Both the position numbers and the translations under genes were made by a program. DNA of 64,000 nt from Amycolatopsis sp. DSM 110486 (lineage in GTDB: Bacteria > Actinomycetota > Actinomycetes > Mycobacteriales > Pseudonocardiaceae): contig NZ_CP080519.1 of the NCBI RefSeq assembly GCF_019468465.1, positions 434,001 to 498,000 on the forward strand. Direction: 5' to 3'. The notes beneath the pieces were generated by a model. The model was not told the origin of the DNA, searched no databases, and worked only from the letters and a program-made list of their open reading frames with translations. Positions 17,722 through 53,398 of the stretch are shown here, piece by piece; the first letter of the stretch is position 1, and every line of letters begins with the position of its first letter.

Positions 17722-17786
17722 TTGACCCGCCGCTGGAGGGCGCCTTATGGTCATATCGTCGTTCGGACTAACCAATAGACCAGACC
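17722..17786 (+). promoter_or_regulatory. Promoter and GntR-type operator of the aldolase operon
   Basis: TTGACC (17722-17727) and TATGGT (17746-17751) form a possible -35/-10 pair with an 18-bp spacer. TTATGGTCATATCG overlaps the -10, and the cluster palindrome TTCGGACTAACCAAT lies at 17762-17776, with a further half site AGACCAG just after it. Confidence 0.6.
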
Positions 17787-17808
17787 TTCGGAACAAACAG
17801 GAGGCGCC

Positions 17809-18516
17809 GTGAGGGAGTCCGTCGCGCTCGCCTGCCGGGTGCTCGCCGCGACCGGCCTCGTCGAGCACGTGCTCGGCCACATCAGCGTCCGCACGTCGCC
17901 GGACGAGCTGCTGGTGCGCTGCCGTGGCCCGGAGGAAGCCGGCCTCCGCTACACGACGGCGGAGGACATCCGGCCGGTGCCGCTGCACGGCACGCCCGAA
18001 ACCGGCGAGTGGAGCGTGCCCAACGAGCTCCCGATCCACACCGAGGTGCTGCGGCGCCACCCCGAGGCGACGGCCGTGGTCCACGCGCACCCACCCGCCG
18101 TGGTCACCATGGCGCTCGCCGGGCTGCCGTGGCTGCCGCTGTTCGGCGCCTACGACATCCCCGCCGCGCGGCTGGCCGCAGACGGCATCCCCGTGTGGCC
18201 GCGCTCGGTGCTGGTGAACGACCACGACCTCGCCGGGCAGATGGCCGACGCGCTCGGCGACCGGCCGGTCCTGGTCCTCAGTGGACACGGGCTGGTCAGC
18301 GTCGCCGGCGGCGACCCCGAGACCGCGGTGGCCCAGGCCGTGTTGCAGGCCATCGCCGTCGACACGCTCGCCCGGCACACCCTCGCCGTCGCCCACGCCG
18401 GCGGGAAACCGGTGGCGATCCCCGACGAGGACCTCGCGCTCCTGCCCGATCTGGGCGGGGCGTTCAACGTCACGACCCTGTGGCGGCACGTGGTGCGGCG
18501 CACCGAGAACCCCTGA
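17809..18516 (+). CDS. Class II aldolase/adducin family protein
   Basis: 235 aa. Zinc-binding pattern of class II aldolases: VVHAHPPAVVTMAL near residues 85-98 (HxH) and a third histidine in LVLSGHGLVSV near 157. The early GHISVRTSPDELLVRCRG is also typical. GTG start with GGAGGC upstream. Members cleave or decarboxylate small hydroxy-acids and sugar phosphates; in this catabolic regulon a retro-aldol or decarboxylation step is plausible, but the substrate is not known. First gene of an operon with a cupin, methyltransferase and Ni/Co permease. Confidence 0.88.
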   Translation: MRESVALACRVLAATGLVEHVLGHISVRTSPDELLVRCRGPEEAGLRYTTAEDIRPVPLHGTPETGEWSVPNELPIHTEVLRRHPEATAVVHAHPPAVVTMALAGLPWLPLFGAYDIPAARLAADGIPVWPRSVLVNDHDLAGQMADALGDRPVLVLSGHGLVSVAGGDPETAVAQAVLQAIAVDTLARHTLAVAHAGGKPVAIPDEDLALLPDLGGAFNVTTLWRHVVRRTENP

Positions 18517-18548
18517 AGTCCCCCGCGAGTACGACAAGGAGAGCAGCA

Positions 18549-19124
18549 GTGCGTGACGAGTACCTGAAGGGCGTCCTGGCCAGCGAGAAGAAGAACCTCG
18601 ATTCCTCGGAGATCGCGGCCCGCGACGAGTTCAACCGGCAGCACCCGCCGAACAAGGGCCTGGTCGTGGAGGACGACCTGAGGAAGATGGAGCTGCCGGC
18701 CCGGCCGTGGCGCAACAACCGAGGCCACTACTTCGACCTCGCCGACTACGAGGTGCTGAGCGCGCACATCTCGGAGCTCAAGCCGGGCAACAACTCCGTG
18801 CGCCACCGCCACACCACCGAGGCCTACCTCTACGTGGTCAAGGGACACGGTTTCTCGCTCGTCAACTACGACGACGAGCCGATCGAGGTCGTCGAATGGC
18901 AGGAGGGCACGCTGTTCGCGCCGCCTCGGTGGGCGTGGCACCAGCACTTCAACCTCGACGGCAATGACACCGCGCGCTACCTCGCGATCCAGGACACGGG
19001 ACTGCTGCGCACGATGCGCCTGCACAACATTGAGCGCCACGGCGTGCAGCTCTCCCCCGACGAGGGCAAGCAGCTCCTCGACGCGGCCGTCGAGGCCGGC
19101 ACCACGCACGGCGCCCGCAAGTAA
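18549..19124 (+). CDS. Cupin protein
   Basis: 191 aa. Metal-ligand motif RHRHTTEAYLYVVKGHG near residues 84-100 and WAWHQHFN near 125-132, so the four cupin ligands (two His, Glu, His) are present. It has an N-terminal helical extension of about 50 residues. GTG start with AAGGAG seven bases upstream. Related to the cupin half of gentisate-1,2-dioxygenase-like and pirin-like proteins. A terminator hairpin follows (19133-19173). Likely a metalloenzyme or binding protein of the aromatic pathway. Confidence 0.85.
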   Translation: MRDEYLKGVLASEKKNLDSSEIAARDEFNRQHPPNKGLVVEDDLRKMELPARPWRNNRGHYFDLADYEVLSAHISELKPGNNSVRHRHTTEAYLYVVKGHGFSLVNYDDEPIEVVEWQEGTLFAPPRWAWHQHFNLDGNDTARYLAIQDTGLLRTMRLHNIERHGVQLSPDEGKQLLDAAVEAGTTHGARK

Positions 19125-19132
19125 GCGATTCC

Positions 19133-19173
19133 CTCGGCCGTGCTCCCGCACCCGAGGCGGGAGCACGGCCGAG
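19133..19173 (+). terminator. Hairpin between cupin and methyltransferase genes
   Basis: Perfect 17-bp stem CTCGGCCGTGCTCCCGC / GCGGGAGCACGGCCGAG around a 7-base loop. No T-run; it may attenuate rather than stop transcription into the methyltransferase gene. Confidence 0.65.
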
Positions 19174-19205
19174 CCACGAACCCATCCGACCTGTGAGGAG
19201 TGCCC

Positions 19206-19877: not shown

Positions 19878-20982
19878 CGGATCCCACCGGCTCGCCCGCG
19901 TCCGCGTCGCGCTCAGCGGCCGCGAATGGGCGTCGCTGGGCGGCATGGCCACTGTCGTCCTGCTGCTGAACCTCGTCGGCTGGGGGGTGCTCGGCCTCGT
20001 GGTGGCCCCGGAGCACCACGCGCTGGCCGGCGGCGGGTTCTTCGGCGTCGGGCTCGGCGTCACGGCGTTCACGCTGGGCCTGCGCCACGCGTTCGACGCC
20101 GACCACATCGCCGCCATCGACAACACCACCCGCAAGCTGATGGCCGAGGGGGGCCGGCCGCTGTCGGTCGGGTTCTGGTTCTCGCTCGGTCATTCGACCG
20201 TCGTGTTCGGACTGTGCCTGCTGCTCTCGATCGGTGTGCGCGCGCTCGCCGGATCGGTCACGGACGACTCGTCGGCGCTGCACCGGGTGACGGGCCTGAT
20301 CGGCACGTCGGTATCGGGGGTGTTCCTCTATATCATCGGGATCGTCAACCTGGTCGTGCTGTTCGGCATTCTGCGAGTGTTCCGCGAGATGCGCCACGGC
20401 CGGTTCAGCGAAGCCGAGCTCGAGGAGCACCTCGCGCGGCGCGGCGTGCTGAACCGGCTGCTGTCCGGCCTGACGAAGGCGGTCCGCAAGCCCTGGCACA
20501 TCTACCCGGTGGGTGTCCTCTTCGGACTCGGGTTCGACACCGCCACCGAGGTGGGCCTGCTCGTGCTGGCGGCGGGCGCGGCCACTTTCGCCCTGCCCTG
20601 GTACGCCATCCTCGTGCTGCCGGTGCTGTTCGCGGCGGGGATGACGCTGTTCGACACCGCCGACGGCTGCTTCATGAACTTCGCCTACGGGTGGGCGTTC
20701 GCGAAGCCGGTGCGCAAGGTCTTCTACAACCTCACCGTGACCGCGCTTTCGGTGGCTGTCGCGCTCGTCATCGGGACGATCGAGCTGCTGTCGATCCTCG
20801 CCGACCGGCTCGGGATCGTCTCGGGCCCGCTGGCCGCGATCGCCGACCTCGACCTGAACAACGTCGGCTTCGCGATCGCCGGGTTGTTCGTCGCGACCTG
20901 GCTCGTCGCCGTGCTCGTCTGGCGGGTCGGCCGGATCGAGGAGAAGTGGTCGGCCCACCTCTCCGTCGACCCCGACCGTTAG
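19867..20982 (+). CDS. Nickel/cobalt permease, HoxN/NixA (NiCoT) family
   Basis: 371-aa integral membrane protein with about eight helices. The NiCoT signature RHAFDADHI is in helix 2 near residues 73-81. Further family motifs are FSLGHSTVVF, LGFDTATEVGLL and LFDTADGCFMNFAYGWAF. It imports Ni2+ or Co2+. GTG start overlaps the methyltransferase stop. No urease or hydrogenase genes are nearby, so the metal may be needed by a cupin or another metalloenzyme of this cluster. It converges with the NAD(P)-binding gene and shares stop-codon bases with it. Confidence 0.93.
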   Translation: MTVDGSHRLARVRVALSGREWASLGGMATVVLLLNLVGWGVLGLVVAPEHHALAGGGFFGVGLGVTAFTLGLRHAFDADHIAAIDNTTRKLMAEGGRPLSVGFWFSLGHSTVVFGLCLLLSIGVRALAGSVTDDSSALHRVTGLIGTSVSGVFLYIIGIVNLVVLFGILRVFREMRHGRFSEAELEEHLARRGVLNRLLSGLTKAVRKPWHIYPVGVLFGLGFDTATEVGLLVLAAGAATFALPWYAILVLPVLFAAGMTLFDTADGCFMNFAYGWAFAKPVRKVFYNLTVTALSVAVALVIGTIELLSILADRLGIVSGPLAAIADLDLNNVGFAIAGLFVATWLVAVLVWRVGRIEEKWSAHLSVDPDR

Positions 20983-21794
20983 GCGGGCGGCCCGCCGAAC
21001 AGCTCCGCCACGCCCGCGACGGTGATGCCCTCCATCACCTCGCGCGCGGTGTGCGCCACCGGCAGGTCCTGGCCCACGCCGTCGGCCATGCGGAACGCAT
21101 TGGCCAGATCCTTGCGGTACCAGGTGAAGCGCATCAGTTCGAGCTGCGCGAGCGTGGCGCTCGCGGCCACTCCGTCGAGCAAGGCCCGGCGCAGCTTCGC
21201 CGGCTCGACGCCGAGGCTGCGACCGAGCCGCATCGCCTCGACGATCGCCGTGATCTGGCCCCAGTGACACAGGTTGTTCACCGTCTTGCCGACCTGGCCG
21301 GAGCCGAGCGGACCGAGGTGGTGCACCGCTTTCGTCCACGGCTGCAGCGCCGGGCGCACCCGGTCCAGCACAGCTTCTTCCCCGCCGACCAGCAGGACGA
21401 TCTCGCCGTTCTCCGCTCCGCGGACACCGCCGGTGAGCGCCGCGTCCAGGACGGCCACTCCGGCGCCTTCGGCCTCGGCCTCGACGCGGTGCGAGGTCTC
21501 GGGCGTCACCGAACTGCAGATCAGCAACGCGGAGCCAGGCTTCGCCGTGGTCAGCACGGCCGCCGACACCTCGAGCACGTCCTCATCAGACGGAACGATC
21601 ACGAGCACCACGTCGCAACCGCCGAGCCCGGCCGCGGACCCGGCCGCCCTCGCGCCCGCGCCGACCAGTTCGTCCACTGTGGAGCGATTGCGGTCGAATA
21701 CAACCGTGTCCCAGCCGGCGCCGGCGAGGTGCCGCGCGATCGGCGCGCCCATCGCACCCAGCCCGGCCACGCCAACGCTTCCGTGATCCGACAT
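20979..21794 (-). CDS. NAD(P)-dependent beta-hydroxyacid dehydrogenase (3-hydroxyisobutyrate dehydrogenase-like)
   Basis: 271 aa. N-terminal Rossmann motif GVAGLGAMGAPIARHLAGAG. The mid-protein substrate motif GLGSGQVGKTVNNL near residue 165 contains the catalytic lysine, and the C-terminal helical domain is present. ATG 21794 with GGAAGG upstream is chosen over an upstream in-frame ATG at 21872, which lies in the terminator region. It oxidises a beta-hydroxy acid or reduces a semialdehyde. It lies 105 bp downstream of the bicupin gene on the same strand, but a terminator separates them. Confidence 0.88.
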   Translation of the reverse strand: MSDHGSVGVAGLGAMGAPIARHLAGAGWDTVVFDRNRSTVDELVGAGARAAGSAAGLGGCDVVLVIVPSDEDVLEVSAAVLTTAKPGSALLICSSVTPETSHRVEAEAEGAGVAVLDAALTGGVRGAENGEIVLLVGGEEAVLDRVRPALQPWTKAVHHLGPLGSGQVGKTVNNLCHWGQITAIVEAMRLGRSLGVEPAKLRRALLDGVAASATLAQLELMRFTWYRKDLANAFRMADGVGQDLPVAHTAREVMEGITVAGVAELFGGPPA

Positions 21795-21845
21795 CAGTAC
21801 CTTCCTCCCCGCCGACGGGGCCGCACCCCGCGGCAGTCGAAGCGA

Positions 21846-21886
21846 AAGGGGCCTGCCTCGCGATGAATCCACGAGACAGGCCCCTT
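21846..21886 (-). terminator. Terminator of the bicupin gene
   Basis: Stem AAGGGGCCTGCCTCG / CGAGACAGGCCCCTT (one mismatch) with an 11-base loop, just downstream of the bicupin stop codon on the minus strand. Confidence 0.7.
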
Positions 21887-21899
21887 CTTCACGGACGCC

Positions 21900-22925
21900 T
21901 CAGACGGCGCTGGCGGCTTCGGCCAGTTCGCCGGTGTACTCCGGAGCGTTTTCGAAGTAGTGCACCTTGTCGTAGCCGATGTGCTTGAACATGCGGTTCT
22001 GCGCGGACAGCAAGCGCAACGGAGTGCCGTCTGCGGCGTAGTGCACGGCGATCGTGTTCTGCGGAACGTAGAGCGTGTCGCCCTTCGTGATCTCGTGCCG
22101 GGTCGGCGTCTTCGCGACTCGCGCGTAGTACTTCTCCGCGATCTCCTCCTGGACCTCCCAGTGCAGCGAATAGCCGGAGCCATCGAGCACATAGAGGACC
22201 TCGTCGGCCATCTTCCAGTGCTTGCCCGAGCGGCTGCCGGCCGGGATGTCGAGCTCGAAGACATCGACGGAGAACTGACGCAGGTCCGTCCGCTCGGGAC
22301 TGTTGAGCACGCGGACGCGGCCCATCGGGGTCGTTTCCCAGACCGTGTCCTCCTGCCGCACGACCTTCTTGCGCTCCAGCACACCGTCGGTCCAGATCCG
22401 CGACCAGTCCTCGCGCTCACCGAACTCGTCCGGCCGCTCGATCGGACCGCCGCGGCCCTGCTGCAGCAGACCCAGGAACATCCACGTGCACTTGGCCTTC
22501 ATCACCAGCGCGACGGCTTTTTCGTCGTAGGGGTTGTAGTGCCGGTGCACCGAGTCGGTGTGCACGAAGACCAGTTCCCCGGCCTTCCAGTCGTAACGCT
22601 GGTCGTCGTGGATCTCGTAGCCGGCACCTTCGAGGATGTAGAAGGACGCCTCGTTCTGGTGTCCGTGTCCCCGGTTGGAGCTGTGCGGCGGCAGTTCGAC
22701 GAAATGCACCTGCAACGTCTGGGTCAGGAAGTCCTCGTCCCCCGGCCCGATTCGCCACCACGTGCGGGACTTCTCCGAGTCGCCGGAGTGGCCGACCTTC
22801 GCGTCGTCGACCACCACCGAGTCGTCGCGGACTCGTTCGGCGGCCAGCTGGGCCTGACGGAACTGACCGAGCCCGTAGGTCTCAGAAGTCAAGCCACGTA
22901 CGAACACGCGTCCCTTCTTGCCCAT
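21900..22925 (-). CDS. Bicupin protein
   Basis: 341 aa with two cupin domains. Domain 1 has HGHQNEASFYILEGAG near residues 82-97 and HRHYN near 125. Domain 2 has GKHWKMADEVLYVLDGSG near 225-242 and VPQNTIAVHY near 290. Domain 1 keeps a full metal-ligand set; domain 2 has fewer clear His ligands. ATG 22925 has GAGGA just upstream. The fold is that of ring-cleaving gentisate/salicylate dioxygenases and oxalate decarboxylases. Divergent from a 4,5-dihydroxyphthalate decarboxylase-like gene with a cluster operator between them. Candidate ring-opening or oxidative enzyme. Confidence 0.85.
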   Translation of the reverse strand: MGKKGRVFVRGLTSETYGLGQFRQAQLAAERVRDDSVVVDDAKVGHSGDSEKSRTWWRIGPGDEDFLTQTLQVHFVELPPHSSNRGHGHQNEASFYILEGAGYEIHDDQRYDWKAGELVFVHTDSVHRHYNPYDEKAVALVMKAKCTWMFLGLLQQGRGGPIERPDEFGEREDWSRIWTDGVLERKKVVRQEDTVWETTPMGRVRVLNSPERTDLRQFSVDVFELDIPAGSRSGKHWKMADEVLYVLDGSGYSLHWEVQEEIAEKYYARVAKTPTRHEITKGDTLYVPQNTIAVHYAADGTPLRLLSAQNRMFKHIGYDKVHYFENAPEYTGELAEAASAV

Positions 22926-23021: not shown

Positions 23022-23036
23022 AACTGTCCTACCAAT
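23022..23036. promoter_or_regulatory. GntR-type cluster operator
   Basis: AACTGTCCTACCAAT, a copy of the cluster palindrome (reverse reading ATTGG-TAGGA-CAGTT, right arm imperfect). It lies between the divergent bicupin and decarboxylase-like genes, next to an AT-rich TATAGG (23013-23018). Confidence 0.5.
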
Positions 23037-24054: not shown

Positions 24055-24403
24055 ACCCGGTGCGGTAATCCGCCATTCGGCCCTACGGTTTCCGCCGGGC
24101 TTTGGCAGAATGGCTGCCACTTCGACGCAGGGACGCGCCCGCCCGCACTCACCGCGCACGGGCCGTCCCGCGCTGCGCTCACCGTCCGAAGTGGATCCGC
24201 GGGCCGAGGATTTCGATCGGGACCAGCATCGGCATCAACGGTTGACAAATGGTCATACCATAGGTCCATACTGCTCGAACCGAACGGCCCATGGCCTCAG
24301 GCACCGGACCCTCGGCACCCGAAGCTCCGCGACAGTTCCGCACTCACATCGTGGTGAGCCCGCCTTGTTCCCGGCGGCGGTCCGCTCACCGAAGGGAACC
24401 GCA
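24055..24403 (+). promoter_or_regulatory. Long leader and promoter of the iron/spermidine-type ABC operon, with cluster operator
   Basis: 349-bp gap without a gene. TTGACA (24242-24247) is a good -35. The cluster palindrome AATGGTCATACCATA (24248-24262), with a perfect TGGT-CAT-ACCA core, lies directly after it, and a CATACT -10-like box is at 24267. The transcript would then carry a leader of about 125 nt before the ATG at 24404. Small hairpins such as CTCACATCGTGGTGAG occur; no known riboswitch was recognised. Confidence 0.6.
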
Positions 24404-25495
24404 ATGCACAAGAGGCGAAGCACCCGACGGACCGTCTCGGCCGTCCTCGCCGGCGGCCTGGCGTTGACGATGGCCGCCGCGTGCGGCTCCGGCGCGGCCA
24501 GCTCTACCGACGAGGCCCAGACGACGGCCGACCAGCGCAACCCCCAGCAGCTCGCCGAGGTGGCGGCGAGGGAAGGCCAGGTGGTCTGGTACACCACGTT
24601 CGCCGACACCGACGTCGCTCCGATCATCGCGTCGTTCAACAAGGTCTACCCGAAGATCAAGGTCAACGCCCTGCGGCTGAGCGCCGACAAGATCCCGCCC
24701 CGCGTGATCACCGAGCAGCGCGGCGGCAAGTACAACGCCGACGTGGTCTCCGGCGACTCGCCGCAGATCGCCCAGCTGCTGCAGGCGGGCGCGCTGCAGC
24801 CCTACAAACCGGTCGACGCCGCACCGCTGCCCGCCGGGCTCAGCCTGCCCGACGGCTACCAAGGTGTCGTGTACGCCGTCACCACCGTGCTCTCCTGGAA
24901 CCCCCAGGTGCTCACGCAGAAGGGCCTGACCGCACCGAAATCCTGGGAGGACCTCACGAAGCCCCAGTGGCGCGGGCAGTTCTCGATCGACCCCGGCGCG
25001 GTCAACTGGTACGACAGCCTGATCGCGGCGATGGGCCACGACAAGGCACTGGCGTTGCTGAAGGGGCTCGGCGACAACGCGCCGGTGTTCGTCGAGAGCC
25101 ACACCCAGTCGCTGACCAACGTGCAAGCCGGCGAGCCGCTCGCCGCCGCGACCGCCTACGGCTACAAAGCCTCCAGCCTCAAGAAGAAGACGCCGAACAC
25201 CCTGGACTTCGTCAACGGCACACCGCTGCCGGCGTCGCTGAACCTCATCGACGTCGTGAAGAACTCGCCGCACCCCAACGCCGCCCGCCTCTTCGACGAC
25301 TGGATGGTCTCCAAGGCCGGGCAGCAGGAGATCGTCGACGTCACCAACCACACGTCGGTCCGCCCGGACGTCACCAACGACGCGAAGGTGTGGGACGAGA
25401 CGAAGTGGCCGGCCGCGTGGGGGCACCCGAACCTCTCGCAGGCGGACTACAACAACGAGCTCGCGGAAATGAAGTCGGCACTCAAAGCGCCGTGA
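24404..25495 (+). CDS. ABC transporter substrate-binding lipoprotein (Fe3+/AfuA type)
   Basis: 363 aa. Lipoprotein signal: basic start MHKRRSTRRTVSA, hydrophobic core, lipobox AAAC near residue 27. The mature protein begins the AfuA/FbpA-like pattern EGQVVWYTTFADTDVAPII and continues with VITEQRGGKYNADVVSGDS. Family members bind ferric iron, 2-aminoethylphosphonate, polyamines or aromatic acids. In this aromatic regulon an organic acid is as likely as iron. First gene of a five- or six-gene operon (SBP, permease, ATPase, M29-like, MoxR, VWA). Confidence 0.88.
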   Translation: MHKRRSTRRTVSAVLAGGLALTMAAACGSGAASSTDEAQTTADQRNPQQLAEVAAREGQVVWYTTFADTDVAPIIASFNKVYPKIKVNALRLSADKIPPRVITEQRGGKYNADVVSGDSPQIAQLLQAGALQPYKPVDAAPLPAGLSLPDGYQGVVYAVTTVLSWNPQVLTQKGLTAPKSWEDLTKPQWRGQFSIDPGAVNWYDSLIAAMGHDKALALLKGLGDNAPVFVESHTQSLTNVQAGEPLAAATAYGYKASSLKKKTPNTLDFVNGTPLPASLNLIDVVKNSPHPNAARLFDDWMVSKAGQQEIVDVTNHTSVRPDVTNDAKVWDETKWPAAWGHPNLSQADYNNELAEMKSALKAP

Positions 25496-25539
25496 CCCCC
25501 TGACGGCCGTGGCGGACCCCGCCGGCGAAAGGACCCACG

Positions 25540-27321: not shown

Positions 27322-27363
27322 GCACACCCGACAACAACCCCCGCGGGAGAGTGGGATCCGAAG

Positions 27364-28455: not shown

Positions 28456-28477
28456 CCCGAGAGGAGCACGGCCGCCG

Positions 28478-36452: not shown

Positions 36453-36459
36453 AATGCCT

Positions 36460-36474: not shown

Positions 36475-36520
36475 AGTCCACGCTTGCCGCAGGGCCCCCG
36501 GCGGACCACAATGCGAAAGG

Positions 36521-36538: not shown

Positions 36539-36549
36539 CTGGAGGCTCG

Positions 36550-39548: not shown

Positions 39549-39586
39549 TGTTCTGTCCTTCTGGGGATGGGCGGGGACGGGAAACG

Positions 39587-41334: not shown

Positions 41335-41366
41335 AATTGTCAGTCCAAAGCAATGGTCCAACTGAG
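41335..41366. promoter_or_regulatory. GntR-type cluster operator (SsuB-like promoter)
   Basis: AATTGTCAGTCCAAA (41335-41349; reverse TTTGG-ACTGA-CAATT) plus a half site CAATGGTCCAAC (41351-41362), just upstream of the importer operon. Confidence 0.5.
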
Positions 41367-41428: not shown

Positions 41429-41443
41429 TAAGGTCAGACCATT
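41429..41443 (+). promoter_or_regulatory. GntR-type cluster operator (gntR paralog 2)
   Basis: TAAGGTCAGACCATT, reverse reading AATGG-TCTGA-CCTTA, 52 bp upstream of the second gntR gene, suggesting autoregulation. TTGACT (41442-41447) may be its -35. Confidence 0.55.
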
Positions 41444-44556: not shown

Positions 44557-44560
44557 CGGG

Positions 44561-45559
44561 TCACCTTCCTGCGGCGGCGAGCCGCCGGTCGAGCCGGGGG
44601 TAGACCCGGCGAGCGTTGTTCTCGTACACCGCCGCCAGGTCCTCGCCGGCGAGCCCGGCGCGGTCGACGTACTGCAACGTGTCGTCCCAGGCGATGCCGG
44701 TTTCCGGGTCCGCCCCGCGCACCGCGCCGAGCATCTCGGACGCGAAGAGCACGTTCTTCGCGGGCAGGACATCGAGCAGCAGGTCGATGCCGGGCTGGTG
44801 GTAGACGCACGTGTCGAAGAAGACGTTCGGCAGGAGCTCGGCCGGGTCGCGCCAGCCGTTGCGCATCGCCAGGCCCCGGTAGCGTCCCCAGTGGTAGGGC
44901 ACCGCTCCCCCGCCGTGCGGGATCACCAGTCGCAGACCGGGAAACCGGTCGAAGAGCTTCGACTCGAGCAGCTGGGTGAAGACGCTGGTGTCGGCGTTGA
45001 GGTAGTGCGCTCCGAGCGTGTGGTGGTTCGCGTTGCACGCCGTCGAGACGTGCACCATCGCGGGCACGTCCAGCTCGGTCAGGACCTCGTAGACACCGAA
45101 CCACGACTCGTCGGTGATCGGCTTGCCCGCCCAGGTGCCGGACGGGTCCGGGTTCAGGTTGACGCCCACGAAACCGAGTTCGCCGACGGTCCGGCGGATC
45201 TCGGCCGTGACGCCGCCGAGATTGCCTTCAGGCGTCTGCGGAAGCTGCGCGACCGGGGCGAAGTGCTCGGGGTAGAGCTCGGCGACGCGGTGGACGAGGT
45301 CGTTGGACGCGCGCGCCCAGGCGTTCGCCACGCCGGCGTCGGGCACGTGGTGTTCCATACCGGATGCTTTGGGAGAGAACAACGTCAGGTCGCCGCCACG
45401 CTCCCGCAGCACACGCAGCTGGTTACCCTCGACGCTCTCGCGCAGCTCGTCGTCGGTCACCGGCGCCAGTGCCGCCCGCTCACCGTCGAGCTGGGCGTCG
45501 CGGAACTGTTTCAACGCCGGCGGGGCTGTCGTGTAGTGACCGTGGATGTCGATGATCAC
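44561..45559 (-). CDS. ligJ: 4-oxalomesaconate hydratase (LigJ-like amidohydrolase)
   Basis: 332 aa, usual length. Very close in wording to LigJ of Sphingobium SYK-6: [12 protein letters not shown] at the start (metal His6 and His8), [61 protein letters not shown] and [14 protein letters not shown], with the metal-site Glu in ASE. Known reaction: hydration of 4-oxalomesaconate to 4-carboxy-4-hydroxy-2-oxoadipate in the protocatechuate 4,5-cleavage and gallate pathways. Coupled by ATGA to ligK. Confidence 0.92.
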
Positions 45560-46266
45560 CGGTCGCGCACCTCCTTGAGGTACGCGTCGTGCTCCACGTA
45601 CCGCAGGCCCTTGCGGGCGAGGCGCTCGCGCATCGAGTTGACGTCAAGGCCCAGCTCTCCCGCCGCGTAGCGGGCCCGCAGGCGCGCTTCCTTGTCCTCC
45701 CGCGCAGCCGACGCCGCGAGGATCTCGTCCGCGTCGGCGCGGCGCACGACCACCACCCCGTCGTCGTCGGCGACGATCACGTCACCCGGCTCGACGAGCC
45801 GGCCACCGCAGACGACGGGGATGTTCACCGAGCCGAGGGTTTCCTTGACCGTGCCCTCGGCGGACACGGCCCGGGACCAGACGGGGAACGGCAGCTCGCG
45901 CAGCTCGGCGATGTCGCGGCAGCCGGCGTCGATGACCAGGCCCCGCACCCCACGCGCCTTGAGCGAGGTCGCCAGCAGCTCGCCGAAGTAGCCCGCGTCC
46001 GACGGCGACGTCGGAGCGACGACGAGCACGTCACCGGGCTGACTCTGCTCCACGGCCACGTGGATCATCCAGTTGTCGCACGGCGCCACGCTCACCGTCA
46101 CCGCCGTGCCCGCCACGTGCGCACCCGGGTAGATCGGGTTCAGCGTGGACGCCATCAGCCCGGTGCGGCCCTGAGCTTCGTGAATGGTCGCGACCCCGAA
46201 CCGGCCCAGGCCGTCACGCGTCTCCGGGCCGGTTCGCGGCGGGTTCGTGACGACGATCCCGCTCAT
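45556..46266 (-). CDS. ligK: 4-carboxy-4-hydroxy-2-oxoadipate aldolase (LigK, RraA fold)
   Basis: 236 aa. [35 protein letters not shown] and [19 protein letters not shown] match the LigK/HMG-aldolase branch of the RraA family. The metal/catalytic Arg-Asp pair is Arg117-Asp118 ([10 protein letters not shown]). Unlike plain RraA it has the ~50-residue C-terminal extension typical of the aldolases ([15 protein letters not shown]). It splits the LigJ product into pyruvate and oxaloacetate. Start overlaps the dehydrogenase stop and stop overlaps the ligJ start. Confidence 0.92.
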
Positions 46267-47408
46267 CGGACGACCGCCCCACCGGCCTGGCCGACCAGCG
46301 AGGGCATCAGGGAGATGTGGATCGCGTCCTCGTCGGTCTCGCCGGCGAGCACGCGGATGGCGTGGTCGACCTGGTCGATGCCGTAGCGGTGGGTCGCCAG
46401 CTTCTCCAGCGGGAAGCGGCGCGAGGCGAGCTGGTCCACGGCGAGCTCGCAGGCGCGGAACGAGTGCCCGCGCGCGGACTTGATCGTGATCGCCTTCTCG
46501 GTGACCTTCTTGACCGGAAAGTCCGGGAACGCGGCCAGCTCACCCTGGATGAGGAGCGTGCCTTCGCGACGCTTGAGGACGTCGACGCCGAGCAGGACCG
46601 GCGCGGTGCCGGCGCGCGAAGTGCAGTCGAGCACGATGTCGACGCCGCGGCCGCCGGTGAGGTCCATGATCTTCTCGCGGGGGTCCTCGGTGACCACGTC
46701 GATGACCTCGTCCGCGCCGAGTTCCTTCGCGAGGTCGAAGCGGTGCTTGTCGCGCGTGGTGCCCGACACCAGGATCTGGGCGGCACCGGCGGTCTTGGCC
46801 GCGACCAGCTGCGCGAGGCCCTGCTGGCCCGGGCCCTGGATCAGCACGGTGTCGGCGTATCCGACGCCGGCGGTGAGCAGCGCCCACTCGATGCCGTTGG
46901 ACAGCGGCATGACCATGCCGGCGAGCTCGGGCGTGACCGTGTCGGGGACCTTGTGCAGCACGGAGTTCCACGGCAGGTACATGTATTCGCTGAACCCGCC
47001 CCACAGCGTGCCGGGGTTTTCCGCGGAGGTGTAGCCGAACCGCCGGCCGTCGGGGTTGGTGCGCCAGTCCGTCGCCTCGCAGTGCCGGTACTCGCCGAGG
47101 CGGCACCAGTCGCAGTTGAAGCAGCCGACGTAGTGCTCGACGAACACCCGATCGCCTTCGGAAAGGCCGTGGCGTCGCTTGAACCGCGCCCCGGCCTGTG
47201 CGATGACGCCGACGTTCTCGTGGCCCATGATCACCCGGCCCTGGATCACCGCGGGCGGATTGGCGTACATCTTCACGTCCGTCCCGCAGATCCCCGCGAC
47301 CTCCACCTGCAGCAGGGCGGAGTCCTCGTCGATCGACGGGAGCCGGAATTCCTGCATCTCCGTCGTGCTCGCCGCGACGCGGACGGCCGCCTGCACAGTC
47401 TGGACCAT
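46263..47408 (-). CDS. Zinc-dependent alcohol dehydrogenase (MDR family)
   Basis: 381 aa. Catalytic zinc residues in [11 protein letters not shown] and GHENVG; the structural zinc site is [15 protein letters not shown], four cysteines near residues 103-117. The NAD(P) motif is in [13 protein letters not shown] (GPGQQG, a variant of GxGxxG). First gene of the operon with ligK, ligJ and a decarboxylase-like gene, under the operator at 47429-47443. It may oxidise an alcohol or dihydrodiol intermediate upstream of ring opening; substrate unknown. Confidence 0.9.
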
Positions 47409-47428: not shown

Positions 47429-47446
47429 AATGGACAGCCCAATATA
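47429..47446. promoter_or_regulatory. GntR-type cluster operator and -10 box (ADH/ligKJ promoter, divergent decarboxylase-like gene)
   Basis: AATGG-ACAGC-CCAAT (47429-47443) with perfect arms. On the minus strand, TATATT (47441-47446 complement) is a good -10 directly preceding the palindrome. The same TATATTGG arrangement occurs at the ferredoxin promoter (53359-53376). Confidence 0.65.
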
Positions 47447-48428: not shown

Positions 48429-48431
48429 GCC

Positions 48432-48872
48432 ATGCGCATCGCGATCGCCGCCGACCACCACGGCGTGAACCTCAAGCAGCGCCTCACCACCTGGCTCACC
48501 GACCACGGTCACGAGGTGGACGACCGCGGCTCGCACAGCGCGACGGACACCGTCGACTACCCACCGCTGTGCGCCGACGTGAGCCGGCGGGTCGCCGACG
48601 GCCGCGCCGACGCCGGCCTCGTGCTCGGCGGCAGCGGACAGGGCGAAGTCATCGCCTGCAACAAGATCCGCGGCGTGCGCGCGGGACTCGGGCACACCAC
48701 GTTCATGGTGGAGATCTCGCGCGGCAACAACAACGCCAACGTGCTCGTGATCGGCACGAAGGTCATCTCGGACGACGAAGCGGAACGACTGCTCGCACTG
48801 TGGCTGTCGACTCCGTTCAAGGGCGGCCGGCACCAGGACCGGATCGACCAGATCACCGCGCTGGAAGCCTGA
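48432..48872 (+). CDS. RpiB/LacAB-family sugar-phosphate isomerase
   Basis: 146 aa, normal length. IAIAADHHGVNLKQRL at the start (Asp/His substrate residues), ADAGLVLGGSGQGEVIACNKIRGVRAG near residue 58 (RpiB has a Cys or Ser in this G-x-G loop) and NNNANVLVIGTKVI near 98. RpiB interconverts ribose-5-P and ribulose-5-P; relatives isomerise other sugar acids. Its place in an aromatic operon suggests an aldose/ketose- or keto/enol-type isomerisation of a ring-opened acid, which is inference. It overlaps the end of the convergent phosphatase gene by 20 bp. Confidence 0.88.
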   Translation: MRIAIAADHHGVNLKQRLTTWLTDHGHEVDDRGSHSATDTVDYPPLCADVSRRVADGRADAGLVLGGSGQGEVIACNKIRGVRAGLGHTTFMVEISRGNNNANVLVIGTKVISDDEAERLLALWLSTPFKGGRHQDRIDQITALEA

Positions 48873-49434
48873 TTTCCGGCCGGAACGCGACGGCGGTCGG
48901 CACCTCTGCGCCGATCGCGTCGGCCACGTCCAGCCCGCTCACGTGGGCGAGCAGCATGCGCAGCGAGTTGCCGTGCGCGACCACGAGCACTGACCGGCCC
49001 GATTCCAGCAGCGGCAGCAACTCTTCGAGCCAATACGGCCGCAACCGCTCGTGGAGCATCTGGAGGCTCTCGCCGCCGGGAGGCAGACCGGCCGGCGAAC
49101 GCCGCCAGCAGGCGACCGCTTCGGCACCGAACCGCGCCCGCGCGTCGGCCCGCCGAAGTCCTTGCAGCGCACCGTAATGCCGCTCGACGAGAGCCGGGTG
49201 GTACTCGGCCGCGACGGTCGGCGAGAGCCGGCTCCTGACGATCGCGGCGGTGTCTGCGGCGCGGGCCAGCGGCGAGCAGTGCACGATGTCCGGGACCCAG
49301 CCGGCCAGTCCTTCCGCGGCGGCTCGCGCTTCGAGGGCGCCGGCCGGCGTCAGCGGCACGTCGAGGTGCCCGGCGAACAGGTCCCCGGCGTTGGCGGTGC
49401 TCTCACCGTGGCGCAGCAGGACGAGCGGAGTCAC
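48853..49434 (-). CDS. Histidine phosphatase superfamily protein
   Basis: 193 aa. Catalytic motif VLLRHGEST near residues 5-13, ERHYGALQG near 84 (acid/base Glu), and the second catalytic His in VVAHGNSL near 152. GTG start overlaps the stop of the alpha/beta hydrolase (GTGA). Members are phosphoglycerate mutase-like phosphatases acting on sugar phosphates or cofactors. Last gene of the Rieske-PanB-like operon; role there unclear. Confidence 0.88.
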   Translation of the reverse strand: MTPLVLLRHGESTANAGDLFAGHLDVPLTPAGALEARAAAEGLAGWVPDIVHCSPLARAADTAAIVRSRLSPTVAAEYHPALVERHYGALQGLRRADARARFGAEAVACWRRSPAGLPPGGESLQMLHERLRPYWLEELLPLLESGRSVLVVAHGNSLRMLLAHVSGLDVADAIGAEVPTAVAFRPEIRLPAR

Positions 49435-50285
49435 CGGTCGTGCCCGCGGAGGAACTCCAGAACTCGCGCGGGCGCGGTCTCGGCCGTCTGCTCGGAAACC
49501 GGAACGTCCCAGTATTCGTGCACCGGCAGGCACTCCTGGAGGTAGCGCGCGGCCGAAGGGGCGTGCGAGCTGTCCTGCCCCGGCACGATCAACGCGGGCA
49601 CGTCGCAGGTCATCAGGTCCTCCGGCTCCACGCCCGGAACGGTGTCGCGGTCGAAGAGGCCGCGCACGGAGCCGGTCACGAGCAGGTCGTAGCGCGCCGG
49701 GTCGAAGGCCGCGTACGCCTTCGCGAAGGCTTCGTCGCTGCGCAGCGGCGCGGCCCACGGACCCACCCGCGGGTCGGTGCTGAAGCCGGCGGTCGTCGAC
49801 CGGGCCAGGTCGACGACGGCCGGCAGCCCGTGCTCGGCGACGTAGGCGAGGTGCCGCACGAACCGGCGGTGCTGCGCCATCCGGTAGCGGGGCCCGCCGG
49901 CCGGCGAGAACAGGACCATGCTGCGCACGCGTTCCGGTGCCGCGACGGCGAGCGCCGCGGCGGTCGAGCAGCCGACGCAGCCGCCCATGGTGTGCGCCGC
50001 GTCGATGCCGAGGTGGTCGAGCAGCCCGAGCGCCTGGCGGACGTAGACCGGCCACTCCAGCCGCTCGATGCGGCCACCCGAGCGCCCCGATTCACGTCGG
50101 TCGAAGACGACGCAGGTGTATTCGGGAGCGAAGGCGTCGACGAAGCCGAGTTCACGGTAGCGCCCGAAGCCGGTCCAATTGTCCAAACTGGAATCGAAGC
50201 CGCCCGGACTGAACATCAGCAGCGGCGGGCCGTCACCGACGGTCTGGTAACGCGTAGCGATCCCGTCCAGCACGGCCACGGGCAT
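49431..50285 (-). CDS. Alpha/beta hydrolase with cysteine in the nucleophile elbow
   Basis: 284 aa. Oxyanion-side motif MFSPGGFDSS near residue 25 and the fold core VVFDRRESGRSGG are normal. The nucleophile elbow reads TMGGCVGCS (residues 99-107), so Cys103 stands where most relatives have Ser (GxSxG). Dienelactone hydrolases also use Cys. A late catalytic His is probable, but its position is not obvious. In a ring-cleavage setting a C-C or lactone hydrolase is plausible. It lies 11 bp after the PanB-like stop. Confidence 0.82.
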   Translation of the reverse strand: MPVAVLDGIATRYQTVGDGPPLLMFSPGGFDSSLDNWTGFGRYRELGFVDAFAPEYTCVVFDRRESGRSGGRIERLEWPVYVRQALGLLDHLGIDAAHTMGGCVGCSTAAALAVAAPERVRSMVLFSPAGGPRYRMAQHRRFVRHLAYVAEHGLPAVVDLARSTTAGFSTDPRVGPWAAPLRSDEAFAKAYAAFDPARYDLLVTGSVRGLFDRDTVPGVEPEDLMTCDVPALIVPGQDSSHAPSAARYLQECLPVHEYWDVPVSEQTAETAPARVLEFLRGHDR

Positions 50286-50296
50286 GCTCGTACTCC

Positions 50297-51139
50297 TCAG
50301 CTCTGCGGCACCTTGATGCCACCGCGGATCTGCCGGCCGCCCCGGATGTCCGCGGCGCATTCGGTCAGCGCGTCGAACGTGATCCGCGCGACGTTGGCGT
50401 AGGTGTCGATCTCTTTGTCGACGTTGGCGGCGTTGTAGCCGATGGCCGCGGTGGCCATGCGGATGCGCCCGTCGAGCCACGGACCGCCCCCGAACCCACC
50501 GAGTACGGGGATCGACACCGCGTCCACCACCGCCGGCCCCACCACCGGGCCGGAGTTGGTGAAGTTGAGCGCGACGGCTCCCGCCGACTCGAGCCGCTTG
50601 GCCTCCGCGACCAGCTCGTCGAGCATCCCGTCGGGCACCTGCGCGACGCTGGCCGCCGAGTATTCGATGCCGTACTTCAGGGCCGTCTGCGGCGTGATCC
50701 CGAACTGCGCGAAGACCGGAATGCCCGCCCTGGTCACCGCCTCGACCGCTTCCGGGAAGTCGGCGGCCCCGTCGAGCTTCACCAGGTCGACGCCCGCCTC
50801 CTTGACCAGCCTGATCGACGCGTCGACCGCACTGGCCGCGCCCTGCTGCAGCGGGCCGAACGGGAAGTCGCAGCTGAGCAGCGCTCGCCGGACTCCCCGC
50901 CGAGCCGCCTTCGCGACGACGAGCACCTCGTCGAAGGTGATCTCGAGCGGATGCGGCTGCCCCCAGAGGTTGACCCCGACGGTGTCGCCAACCGAGACGA
51001 TGTCCACGCCGACCCGGTCGGCGATGCGCGCCATCTGGTAATCCCAGGCGACGATGCAGACGCTCTTCTCGCCACGCGCCTTCATCGCCTGCAGAGCCGG
51101 GATGGTGACCTTGCCGGCCGGATCGCTCTGGGGGCTCAT
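50297..51139 (-). CDS. PanB-like protein (ketopantoate hydroxymethyltransferase fold) with altered active site
   Basis: 280 aa. The order of motifs follows PanB: IVSVGDTVGVNLWG (Asp52), LLSCDFPFGP (Asp91), LVKLDGAADFPE (Asp123 where PanB has Glu), FAQFGITPQTA (Gln145 where PanB has His) and ALNFTNSGPV (Asn192 where PanB has its catalytic Glu). The metal Asp pair is kept but the catalytic set is changed, so normal ketopantoate synthesis is unlikely. It belongs to the PEP-mutase/isocitrate-lyase superfamily, so a C-C bond lyase or aldolase role in the pathway is inferred. Start overlaps the preceding stop (ATGA). Confidence 0.82.
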   Translation of the reverse strand: MSPQSDPAGKVTIPALQAMKARGEKSVCIVAWDYQMARIADRVGVDIVSVGDTVGVNLWGQPHPLEITFDEVLVVAKAARRGVRRALLSCDFPFGPLQQGAASAVDASIRLVKEAGVDLVKLDGAADFPEAVEAVTRAGIPVFAQFGITPQTALKYGIEYSAASVAQVPDGMLDELVAEAKRLESAGAVALNFTNSGPVVGPAVVDAVSIPVLGGFGGGPWLDGRIRMATAAIGYNAANVDKEIDTYANVARITFDALTECAADIRGGRQIRGGIKVPQS

Positions 51140-51615
51140 GCGCGCGTCGCTTTCAGCAGTTCCAACAGATCGTCCTCTTCGGCGGGCACCAAGAGGATCC
51201 GGGCGTGCGGACGCAGCGAGAACAGTGCCTCGTTCGCGACTCCGTCGGAGGTCACGACCAGGCCGGCCGTCATGATCCCGCGCACCGTGCAGGCCGCACC
51301 GATGGTGGCCGCCGCCTCCGCGTTCTCACCGGTGGTCGAAACCAGCACGACGGTGTTGCTGTCGCGCAGCTCATCGGTGAGCGCCACCCGGTCGCCGGTC
51401 ATGGTGACCAGCTCGTCACCGGCGCCGGAAGCCGAGTAGAACCGCGCCTGAGCCCACTCCTCGGCGGCCGCTCGCCCGACGATGTCCTTCGCCGCTTCGT
51501 CCAGCGCCACCACCCGCGTGTTGCGGGCGGCGGACAACGGGTAGTCGATCCGGAAAGCCGCTTCCTCGGCGGTCGCCGCGCGGGCACAACTGCTGACCAA
51601 GCCACGTTGCAACAC
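51136..51615 (-). CDS. Unknown protein between Rieske and PanB-like genes
   Basis: 159 aa, not recognised. The sequence alternates strands and helices in a Rossmann-like manner (NTRVVALDEAAKDIV, SNTVVLVSTTGENAEAA, IMTAGLVVTSDG, ARILLVPAEEDDLLELL). No cofactor motif or membrane segment. GTG 51615 with GAGGA six bases upstream is preferred to an upstream ATG inside the Rieske gene. It lies 16 bp from the Rieske stop and overlaps the PanB-like start, so it may be a subunit or helper of the PanB-like enzyme. Confidence 0.7.
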   Translation of the reverse strand: MLQRGLVSSCARAATAEEAAFRIDYPLSAARNTRVVALDEAAKDIVGRAAAEEWAQARFYSASGAGDELVTMTGDRVALTDELRDSNTVVLVSTTGENAEAAATIGAACTVRGIMTAGLVVTSDGVANEALFSLRPHARILLVPAEEDDLLELLKATRA

Positions 51616-51631
51616 TGCGTTCCTCGCCGTC

Positions 51632-52915
51632 TCAGACCGTGGTCTGCCGCACGCCCGGCTTGGCGACCATCGCCTCGCCGATGCCGTCCACAAAGGACTG
51701 GTCGGCGGGCAGCACGACCGCGACCGAGCGCACCTTCTGGTCCTGGGCCCGGTTGCCTGCCGGCTCGACCCCGTCCTCGGCCAGCGCGAGCGCGGCCTTG
51801 CGCAGCTTCTGGCGCGCCTTGATGATGCCCGCGTCGGTGGCGACGAGCCGCTCCTTGGTCCGGTCGACGATCGGCCCCATCGACTCCTGAAGCGACGAGT
51901 CCTGCAGCGCGATGCCCTTGATGCCGGAGTAGGTCTCGCCGCGCCGCTGCGCGTCGCGGTCCATGAGGTAGTCGTTGTCCTTGTTCGCGAGCGGCCGGTA
52001 GTTCTCGTCGTTCGCGCTGTGCACGCCCAGACCTGCCCGCATGGCCGACACCTCTTCGCTGTCGAGCTGGCGGGTCGGGTGGTAGTCGAAGCTCCAGGCC
52101 CAGCAGTTCTCGTCGTCGATCGGCACCCAGAAGTGGCCGTGCATCGGGTGGTCGGCGCGCGGCGGGACCATGGTGAAGTTCGGCAGCACCCACGGCGTCA
52201 CGCGCCAGTAGTAGTGCCCTTCCTCCGCGCTGCGGCGAGCGGCGATGAGCAGGCCGCCCTCGTAGTCGACGACCTCGAAGAACGGCTTCAGGTCCGCGCG
52301 GTTGTAGGCGTTTCCCTTGGAGCCCTTGAAGAGCGGGTCGCTGTCGAGGCTGCCGGAGTGCAGGAAGGTGACGTGGCTGGAGTCGATGCCGCCTTCGAGC
52401 GCCTGCAGCCAGTTGCACTCCTGAAAGCGCTTCGACGTGAAGGCCTGCCCCTCCGGAACGGTCACGAACTCCCACTCCGGCAGCGGCGGCTGCGTCTCCG
52501 GATCACCGAAGTAGGCCCACAGCACGTCGCCGCGCTTGACCATCGGGTAGGACTTGAGCTTGACGTTGGCGCAGAAGTTGCTGGTCTCGGGCTCGCTCGG
52601 AACCTCGATCGCCTGACCGGTGTAGTCGTACTTCCAGCCGTGGTACGGGCAGCGCAGGCCGCCGGCCTCGTTGCGGCCGAACCAGAGCGAGACGCCGCGG
52701 TGCGCGCAGAACTCGTCCATCAGGCCGTAGCGGCCCTCCGAGTCGCGGAAGGCGATCAGCCGCTCCGAAAGGATCTTGACCCGCACCGGCGGGCAGTCGT
52801 CGGCGGGCAGCTCCTCGGCCAGCAGAACGGGCTGCCAGAAGCGCCGGAACAGGGCGCCCATCTTGGTGCCCGGCCCGGTCTGCGTCAGCAGTTCGTTGAT
52901 CTCTGTTCGGAGCAC
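51632..52915 (-). CDS. Rieske aromatic ring-hydroxylating oxygenase (phthalate 4,5-dioxygenase-like)
   Basis: 427 aa. The start INELLTQTGPGTKMGALFRR is characteristic of the phthalate 4,5-dioxygenase/Pht3 group. Rieske [2Fe-2S] ligands are Cys70, His72, Cys89 and His92 (CAHRG and CPYHGW). The mononuclear iron site is in GGIDSSHVTFLH (Asp178, His181, His186). It hydroxylates a carboxylated aromatic using electrons from the ferredoxin encoded next to it. GTG 52915 with AAAGGA upstream. First gene of the operon with the unknown protein, PanB-like, hydrolase and phosphatase genes. Confidence 0.93.
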   Translation of the reverse strand: MLRTEINELLTQTGPGTKMGALFRRFWQPVLLAEELPADDCPPVRVKILSERLIAFRDSEGRYGLMDEFCAHRGVSLWFGRNEAGGLRCPYHGWKYDYTGQAIEVPSEPETSNFCANVKLKSYPMVKRGDVLWAYFGDPETQPPLPEWEFVTVPEGQAFTSKRFQECNWLQALEGGIDSSHVTFLHSGSLDSDPLFKGSKGNAYNRADLKPFFEVVDYEGGLLIAARRSAEEGHYYWRVTPWVLPNFTMVPPRADHPMHGHFWVPIDDENCWAWSFDYHPTRQLDSEEVSAMRAGLGVHSANDENYRPLANKDNDYLMDRDAQRRGETYSGIKGIALQDSSLQESMGPIVDRTKERLVATDAGIIKARQKLRKAALALAEDGVEPAGNRAQDQKVRSVAVVLPADQSFVDGIGEAMVAKPGVRQTTV

Positions 52916-52949
52916 GCTGAAGTCCTTTCGCACCGGCGATCGCGAAGCC

Positions 52950-52978
52950 GTTATAGGATTGAATATCAGACCATTGAA
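52950..52978 (-). promoter_or_regulatory. Rieske promoter with GntR-type operator
   Basis: On the minus strand, TTCAAT (52973-52978) and TATAAC (52950-52955) are separated by exactly 17 bp. The operator GAATATCAGACCATT (52961-52975; reverse AATGG-TCTGA-TATTC) lies in the spacer, an ideal place for repression. Confidence 0.7.
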
Positions 52979-53010
52979 CCACTGGCAATGGCGAGTTCTC
53001 CGCGCCGAGG

Positions 53011-53337
53011 TCAGACGACCTGCTCTCCGGGCACGTCGACGGTGAGCCCGTCGAGCCGCGGCGTCACCTCGATCTGGCACGAGAGGCGGCTCCCGGCCCG
53101 CCGGTCGCCGATCGCGAGGTCGAGGAGGTCGTCCTCCATGTCACCGACTTCGCCGACCTGATCCAGATACTCCTCGCGCACCCATACGTGGCAGGTGCCG
53201 CACGAAAGGCAGCCCCCGCACTCGCCGATGATCCCCGGCACCCCCGCGCGCACGGCCGCGCTCATGACGCTCTCCCCCACGGAGGCGTCGACCGCCCGCT
53301 CCTCGCCGGCGTCGTCGACGTACACGACCTTCGGCAT
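53011..53337 (-). CDS. [2Fe-2S] ferredoxin (plant/putidaredoxin type)
   Basis: 108 aa. Cluster ligands Cys40, Cys46, Cys49 and Cys87 in the pattern C-x5-C-x2-C...C (GECGGCLSCGTCHVW, then RLSCQ). An additional Cys43 lies inside the ligand loop, which is uncommon. It carries electrons from the FAD reductase (42321-43565) to the Rieske oxygenase encoded just downstream. It has its own promoter and operator at 53359-53376. Longer upstream reading is not used; ATG 53337 abuts normal spacing. Confidence 0.92.
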   Translation of the reverse strand: MPKVVYVDDAGEERAVDASVGESVMSAAVRAGVPGIIGECGGCLSCGTCHVWVREEYLDQVGEVGDMEDDLLDLAIGDRRAGSRLSCQIEVTPRLDGLTVDVPGEQVV

Positions 53338-53358
53338 GTCCACTCCTAGCCGCTGACT

Positions 53359-53398
53359 AATGGACTTACCAATATACCGGTTGATCCCGGGGGCGCAA
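53359..53398 (-). promoter_or_regulatory. Ferredoxin promoter with GntR-type operator
   Basis: On the minus strand: TTGCGC (53393-53398), 16 bp, TATATT (53371-53376), then the palindrome AATGGACTTACCAAT (53359-53373; reverse ATTGG-TAAGT-CCATT). Same arrangement as at 47429-47446. Confidence 0.7.

Follow-up and report, generated by a model that had tools for sequence, protein, structure and literature searches.

A shared palindromic operator and two paralogous GntR regulators predict one catabolic regulon in Amycolatopsis sp. DSM 110486

Does a short palindrome that recurs in front of scattered catabolic operons make one regulated system of them, and which protein would read it? We followed this question in a window of 64,000 nucleotides from Amycolatopsis sp. 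DSM 110486 (C1:434001-498000 of the 10.98-Mb genome, G000; contig NZ_CP080519.1), where eleven copies of the element lie between positions 17745 and 53376, alongside the genes of two paralogous GntR regulators with FCD domains. We consider it likely, with a probability of roughly 0.85, that the eleven elements are operators of both local regulators, GntR1 and GntR2, which would repress one regulon and be released by an aromatic acid. The two regulators, whose relatives tend to accompany the left and the right gene module described below, are:

16884..17597, minus strand: GntR1, FCD-domain (FadR-subfamily) regulator with Pfam GntR and FCD domains; own subclade, mostly with left-module genes
41495..42229, plus strand: GntR2, FCD-domain regulator with Pfam GntR and FCD domains; subclade mostly with right-module genes

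Comparative material came from 56 loci of at most 20.7 kb each, which encode relatives of GntR1 or GntR2 and were taken from named actinobacterial records; they occur in Streptomyces, Nonomuraea, Nocardioides, Phytohabitans and others. A 25-bp family matrix was built from 113 non-redundant related sites. A sequence-only model, R1, was built from 75 sites out of a non-redundant set of 96, each entered in both orientations; neither the matrix nor R1 contains window DNA. The initial annotation had placed the element at eleven coordinates, each of which carries it, and all eleven are intergenic on codon-usage gene models, by which the intergenic share of 17745-53376 is 5.1%. Scores in the following list are those of the 25-bp matrix, and conservation refers to the genus relatives G046 and G078.

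17762..17776, plus strand: operator core between GntR1 (minus) and the 3,4-dihydroxyphthalate-decarboxylase-like gene (plus); 19.4 bits; conserved in G046 and G078
17746..17760, plus strand: partial second core beside 17762; 15.4 bits, also in G046, and under 13 in G078; not in the initial list, also recovered by R1
23022..23036, plus strand: operator core between a cupin dioxygenase-like gene (minus) and a putative solute-binding protein gene (plus); 14.0 bits; all 23 scored positions unchanged in G046 and G078
24248..24262, plus strand: operator core upstream of the ABC-transporter/NicX-like/CbbQ/VWA operon; 27.1 bits; flanked by TTGACA and CATACT
36460..36474, plus strand: operator core upstream of the MFS gene (minus); 25.7 bits; conserved in the relatives
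36524..36538, plus strand: operator core 11 bp upstream of the cupin dioxygenase-like gene 36550 (plus); 14.5 bits; 13.7 bits in G078, 17.8 in a second copy in G046
41335..41349, plus strand: operator core upstream of the ABC transporter operon 41253-38568 (minus); 21.1 bits; all 23 scored positions unchanged in G046 and G078
41429..41443, plus strand: operator core upstream of GntR2 (plus); 19.5 bits
42297..42311, plus strand: operator core upstream of the ferredoxin reductase gene 42321 (plus); 16.8 bits; each relative retains 20 of 23 positions and scores higher (18.4, 18.0)
47429..47443, plus strand: operator core between the alcohol dehydrogenase-LigK-LigJ operon (minus) and solute-binding protein/RpiB genes (plus); 20.8 bits; all 23 scored positions unchanged in both relatives
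52961..52975, plus strand: operator core upstream of the Rieske oxygenase operon (minus); 20.3 bits; all 23 scored positions unchanged in both relatives
53359..53373, plus strand: operator core upstream of the ferredoxin gene (minus); 30.3 bits, the window maximum, and top match of R1 in the whole-genome search

While the positions stood, the wording of the motif had to be corrected. The form ATTGG-N5-CCAWT proved too strict, with no plus-strand match in the window and four matches in the whole genome, all on the minus strand and all within the window; the proposed core TGGTnnnACCA is exact at only two of the eleven sites (24250 and 36462), and its third exact copy, at 43305, lies within a gene and was absent from the initial list. 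A better consensus for this genome is AATGG[AT]CNNNCCA[AT]T, of which all four exact matches in the genome fall in the window; one mismatch adds 13 matches, one in the window and 12 elsewhere. Across the relatives the consensus reads nGGnnTAATGGTnnnACCATTAnnCCn. The arms are thus looser than first stated, and the operator is about 25 bp long when outer half-sites are included. On the plus strand, all eleven window sites have an intact CCA arm and a G at -3, irrespective of gene direction.

Regarding placement, the claim that each operon has its own site held for 13 of 14 transcription units, divided by strand and gaps, and failed for one; a methyltransferase/NicO pair (19224-20982) is a possible further unit without a site. 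The embedded kinase gene lacks one, as had been proposed, since no match of at least 6 bits lies between the core starts 24256 and 36460. Of the proposed overlap with -10 boxes it can be said, by eye only, that sites lie across putative -10 boxes or near start codons.

Within its own genome the motif is far more frequent here than elsewhere. Model R1, applied to the window with filters off at E<=10, returned all eleven sites and the partial one (17742-17756) and nothing else. At 15 bits or more the 25-bp matrix gave 10 matches in the window (nine listed sites and the partial one at 17746), none in 1.2 Mb of random DNA from the same genome (60 x 20 kb) and one in 120 kb of flanks, and at 13 bits or more 12, four and one, respectively. 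A whole-genome search with R1, which is lossy and scored 148 first-pass candidates only, found three places at E<=10, none outside the window. Matrix matches at random frequency across the genome, which would have refuted the initial proposal, were not seen in the random DNA or in whole-genome searches with pattern and model.

The link to the regulators comes from the related loci. A matrix from the window alone gave 156 matches of at least 16 bits in the 56 loci, compared to a mean of 1.03 and a maximum of 7 for 30 column-permuted matrices. In 52 of the 56 loci, the 400 bp preceding gntR contain a site of at least 13 bits. A dyad search blind to the window, run upstream of the 56 gntR homologues, recovered GGTA-TGAC in 40 (background mean 1.25), TGGT-N1-TGAC in 34 and the direct repeat TGGT-N4-TGGT in 20 (background 0). 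With 30-bp margins, 216 of 218 related-locus sites of at least 14 bits lie outside genes, a class that makes up 19% of that DNA. Of 332 downstream-gene assignments at related sites, 316 match window proteins at the BLAST cutoff of E<=1e-10, some at low identity and nearly all in this block, and 16 match none. The claim that the motif and the GntR proteins form one regulated system is supported in this respect, with sites preceding homologues of the same genes across actinobacteria; the motif, its placement and its phylogenetic link to this GntR subfamily are apparent from these comparisons. On plasmid 2 of Arthrobacter sp. FB24, a GntR relative of 46% identity has three sites above 21 bits, with the gntR gene, a class II aldolase gene and a set of oxygenase genes close by.

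The consensus of 203 distinct related sites, which is also that of 75 aligned ones, is GGnnTAATGGTnnnACCATTAnnCC, and the family consensus ATGGTnnnACCAT conforms to the operator pattern TKGT-N3-ACMA. Outside the part covered by the selecting matrix, a further GG stands at -4/-3 on the left of 50 and on the right of 29 of 97 non-redundant sites, compared to 2-17 at 12 other offsets. This outer GG occurs at one offset only, with nothing further at -12/-11, so that there is no third repeat. Where a relative's site has a lone outer box, it favours the 5' side of the gntR strand (38 vs 17; 97 sites, p 0.006); the orientation of the gene that follows does not determine the side (15 vs 11, p 0.56), nor is it always the weaker inner side (31 of 81). 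As a separate observation, several more distant FCD loci read ACTGGTCAGACCAGT, and six loci of another FCD GntR group in the same genus (L025-L027, L029, L030, L033) carry this similar but distinct palindrome near gntR.

Both regulators are clear members of their family, with the GntR winged helix-turn-helix (PF00392) scoring 70.4 bits in GntR1 and 69 bits in GntR2 (cutoff 27) and the FCD domain (PF07729) 74.8 and 81.7 bits (cutoff 24.3). They are 57% identical, and their recognition helices, previously described as near-identical, are in fact identical; the helix motif SRVT[VI]R is found in 58 of 59 family GntRs, with P for T in the remaining one. Among the same 59 proteins, H164, H209 and H231 of GntR2 are kept in 59, 59 and 58, and S160 in all. 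The three histidines may form a metal or ligand site; a zinc site is described in another FCD protein, Atu1419 (PMC7797058; statements on this and the other cited papers refer to the parts considered here). The predicted fold of GntR2 (mean predicted local distance difference test score, pLDDT, 79.5; predicted template modelling score 0.57) matches Corynebacterium CGL2915 (LldR-type), NanR and other FCD structures, and tentatively places seven helices after residue 90. Seven helices make up the effector domain of FadR, six that of VanR. GntR2 has 65 matches at E<=0.001 in its own genome, which are FCD GntR proteins, and a relative labelled Amycolatopsis carbonis is 87% identical to it.

We propose a model in which a GntR dimer would read the central inverted repeat (TGG.. 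/ ..CCA, with three bases between the arms), probably joined by the weaker extra half-site, a GG that most sites carry 8 bp beyond the core, on one flank or on both. Since the sites coincide with likely promoters or follow them closely, the bound protein is most likely a repressor, and its targets would be both gntR genes, the transporters, the ring-cleavage enzymes and the Rieske oxygenase system. Release may then come from an aromatic acid, either substrate or intermediate, bound in the FCD pocket near the three conserved histidines. Because the two modules share one operator code, GntR1 and GntR2 probably overlap on all sites. Binding, repression, inducer and cross-binding are what we infer here from sequence.

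The block also behaves as a unit within its genus. A GntR at E<=1e-60 occurs in three of 80 genus genomes (own included), and in all three the GntR1-like and GntR2-like genes are 24.6 kb apart; block 16883-53413 as a whole recurs in two of the 79 others, at 94% and in one piece in G046 and at 88-91% and in four main pieces in G078. Every gene from GntR1 to the ferredoxin was found in both, the kinase partially (417 and 421 of 768 residues). The genes flanking the block in the window were not found beside it in G046 or G078 (about 2.3-2.7 kb compared on the left, 11 kb on the right), where matches reached only 28-36%, two of them to the block's own ABC gene. The ends of the regulon coincide with the ends of this collinear block. 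In addition, G046 has a second, partial copy, which comprises the right module from the MFS gene on and holds eight sites.

Two modules can be discerned, a left one (PhtC, cupins, MFS) that mostly accompanies GntR1-type regulators and a right one (Rieske, LigJ, LigK) that mostly accompanies GntR2-type regulators. A tree of 60 GntRs separates the two window paralogues, GntR1 lying in a group of 26 rows (support 89/89) and GntR2 in one of 17 (support 99/95). The 25 GntR1-group loci hold PhtC in 14, cupinGDO1 in 14, cupinGDO2 in 13, AAA37 in 13 and MFS35 in 14 cases, and the 15 GntR2-group loci hold LigJ in 9, ADH46 in 9, LigK in 8 and PanB in 6. The split is not strict, since LigK, LigJ or ADH46 occur in 6-7 of the 25 GntR1-group loci and PhtC in three of the 15 GntR2-group loci; 16 loci fall in neither group. 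Both groups share one locus in Asanoa iriomotensis (L062), and two more records, of one strain or metagenome-assembled genome each, yield both (L039/L067 and L057/L069). As both groups co-occur elsewhere, the operator code probably predates the present arrangement of the block.

Several observations weigh against the proposed regulon or limit how far its evidence reaches. The related sites were gathered with the window matrix, so that the dyad search alone is independent of the window, and at a loose threshold of 9 bits one permuted matrix equals the real one (308 vs 306). Four related loci (L058, L059, L072, L078) lack a site of at least 13 bits upstream of gntR. Conversely, the window matrix has 10 matches of at least 14 bits in 9 of 29 more distant FCD GntR loci, and the core motif is therefore not unique to the GntR1/GntR2 subfamily, being wider in the FCD family. 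Sites 23022 and 36524 are weak; both score below the highest value in random DNA of the same genome (14.9 bits), and 36524 falls below 13 bits in the main copy of G046. At C1:10143435-10143459 (L177) an intergenic match reaches 18.6 bits with no visible link to the pathway, and a high score by itself therefore proves nothing. For paired sites, helical phasing, examined on 26 distinct distances (64, 94, 158 bp etc.), is unconvincing (R 0.35 at period 10.25, nominal p 0.04 after 21 periods tried). In favour of the sites, their positions are better kept than flanks in G078 (264/276 vs 860/1008, Fisher p 5.9e-7) and in G046 (269/276 vs 935/1008, p 0.003), in a test whose core count includes the partial site 17746, whose positions are not independent and in which flanks of neighbouring sites overlap.

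Of the alternatives, the one that survives best is that of two separate regulons, with GntR1 serving the left module only and GntR2 the right only, kept apart by fine sequence differences. The paralogues do lie in different subclades whose loci favour left- or right-module genes, and operator position 1 is A 0.38/T 0.43 in subclade-1 loci and A 0.73 in subclade-2 loci; yet the recognition helices are identical, both modules are scored by one matrix and the remaining core positions are alike between the subclade motifs, which makes this separation unlikely in our view. A more elaborate version of joint control is rather doubtful: the paralogous repressors might respond to different ligands on the same four-half-site operators, so that the block would open only with both ligands, a two-key lock that would combine FadR-like inverted with NanR-like 8-bp direct geometry in merged modules already sharing an operator code. 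Activation, or activation combined with repression, from these sites is improbable: FadR-type proteins that activate some promoters are known, but positions near start codons or across putative -10 boxes, as judged by eye, suit repression. It is more improbable still that another FCD GntR of the same genome is the main reader instead of the local two. Many FCD paralogues are encoded in this genome and ACTGGTCAGACCAGT appears at some gntR genes of genus mates, but the motif accompanies the GntR1/GntR2 subfamily in 56 loci of other genera and the next own paralogue has only 33% identity. Promoter DNA rich in A+T might also look alike by chance in a G+C-rich genome, and most weak matches elsewhere are indeed intergenic too (5 of 7 matches of at least 11 bits in the random set). 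This reading is already contradicted by the window counts at 15 bits, the permuted matrices and the conservation tests.

Taking both regulators as the readers of all sites, the genes under predicted control are the following.

17809..18516, plus strand: PhtC, 3,4-dihydroxyphthalate decarboxylase-like; NCBIfam NF053537, 309.5 bits (cutoff 200)
20979..22925, minus strand: cupin dioxygenase-like and 3-hydroxyisobutyrate-dehydrogenase-like genes
24404..32735, plus strand: ABC transporter, NicX/M29-fold protein, CbbQ-type AAA and VWA protein
35208..38495, mixed strands: MFS (minus), cupin gentisate-dioxygenase-like and AAA (plus)
38568..41253, minus strand: NMT1-type ABC transporter
42321..43565, plus strand: ferredoxin reductase of Rieske systems; best NCBIfam models below cutoffs
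43570..47408, minus strand: solute-binding protein-like, LigJ-like 4-oxalomesaconate hydratase, LigK aldolase and alcohol dehydrogenase
48853..52933, minus strand: Rieske oxygenase, PanB-like and hydrolases
53011..53337, minus strand: 2Fe-2S ferredoxin

By sequence similarity, the block encodes a phthalate-type ring-hydroxylating oxygenase together with a ferredoxin and a reductase. The nearest solved relative of the Rieske oxygenase is 9INA, an isophthalate dioxygenase (437.7 bits over residues 8-416). The LigJ-like protein has a relative at E 9.7e-119, and LigK reaches 335.6 bits with TIGR02798 (cutoff 304.5). LigJ and LigK together constitute a lower path to pyruvate and oxaloacetate. The block probably degrades phthalate-type aromatic acids.

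Compared with known systems, the regulon appears as a well-supported new example of familiar gene control by the FadR subfamily. FadR-subfamily GntRs recognize TKGT-N3-ACMA palindromes with 3 nt between GT and AC, and weaker extra half-sites 7-12 nt from the site centre occur in 13 of their groups, with their role left to experiment (Suvorova et al. 2015, PMC4494728; for the last point, section 17). The present system is alike in its GntR and FCD domains, palindrome spacing and extra half-sites, and differs in the one sharp position of its outer box, GG at -4/-3. Since extra half-sites are generally known, the outer boxes are a clear example and not a new principle. In the sections of PMC4494728 considered here, neither the present subfamily nor the regulon was found. 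E. coli NanR reads three direct GGTATA repeats (PMC8012715) and resembles our regulators in GGTATA-like half-sites, in being the best PDB sequence match of GntR2 and in its NCBIfam model, which is the best for both GntRs though below the cutoff of 260 (118.4 and 116 bits). Here, in contrast, the core consists of two inverted half-sites, flanked by no more than one outer box per side and lacking a third repeat, and the block has no sialic acid genes. OphR, TphR and IphR control phthalate, terephthalate and isophthalate genes (PMC8222616), the same compound class, but are IclR-type regulators with other operators. The isophthalate dioxygenase IPDO of Comamonas testosteroni KF1, the protein of 9INA (PMC12445078), differs in that the present block encodes a separate ferredoxin and a BphA4-like reductase. 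The regulon was not found among the matches listed in the open-access literature, by titles and abstract openings, with most subscription papers outside this scope.

For an actinobacterial pathway whose substrates are very likely phthalate-type aromatic acids, the analysis thus names a regulator, an operator code and a set of targets. Nature seems here to have brought two paralogous regulators, each with its module, together on one operator, and the sites form a clear set for studying what the additional half-sites next to GntR operators do.

Through the operator, a transporter protein gene far from the block is linked to the pathway as well. The extent of 36 kb given initially fits the ends of the block, while the regulon itself is probably not confined to it. 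Of the 12 one-mismatch sites elsewhere in the genome, the one at C1:8837850 (L105), 8.4 Mb away, is the only one above 13 bits, scoring 18.4; eight others score 4.9-12.2 bits and three have no score above 2 bits. It lies about 90 bp before a gene whose product is 74-77% identical to the solute-binding protein 24404-25495 of the block, and TTGACA, operator and CATACT are arranged, by eye, as at 24248. Such a paralogue site, which the initial annotation had not predicted, speaks well for a functional motif. Among the neighbours of the remote gene there is no match to any transporter gene of the window. The solute-binding protein gene has a third, degenerate copy, which lies in pieces at C1:8478150-8478625 (L187), with no operator of at least 8 bits in a 9-kb stretch around it. 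The match at C1:10143435 is itself a long near-perfect palindrome and could form a long hairpin. We did not count C1:1314160 (15.2 bits), which is inside a gene, and do not claim C1:9037756 and C1:9044459 (14.8 and 14.2 bits), the latter upstream of another FCD gntR.

Several proteins of the block deserve separate mention. A 489-aa protein within 28478-32735 shows no sequence match at E<=0.001 in Pfam, NCBIfam or the PDB, and its model (pLDDT 91) is predicted to fold like M29 aminopeptidases and the 2,5-dihydroxypyridine dioxygenase NicX (Foldseek 6e-10 to 7cn3). It is followed by the CbbQ-type AAA and then the VWA protein, and homologues of all three occur in L035 and L078; that the AAA/VWA proteins might be an activator pair for a dioxygenase-like enzyme is worth testing. 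Similarly, an AAA ATPase gene stands directly behind the gentisate-dioxygenase-like cupin (36550-38495), each being present in 13 of 25 GntR1-group loci. Between the left and the right module lies the operator-free Ser/Thr protein kinase gene (32745-35051), which is kept in G046 and G078 by partial tblastn matches and collinear alignment and was not found in 40 kb around the second copy of G046. At the edges of the block, each end region examined separately, no direct repeats of at least 14 nt were found within either as an insertion footprint. Just beyond the right end, 53423-53457 forms a perfect 16-nt inverted repeat with a 3-nt loop and A/T runs, likely a two-way terminator.

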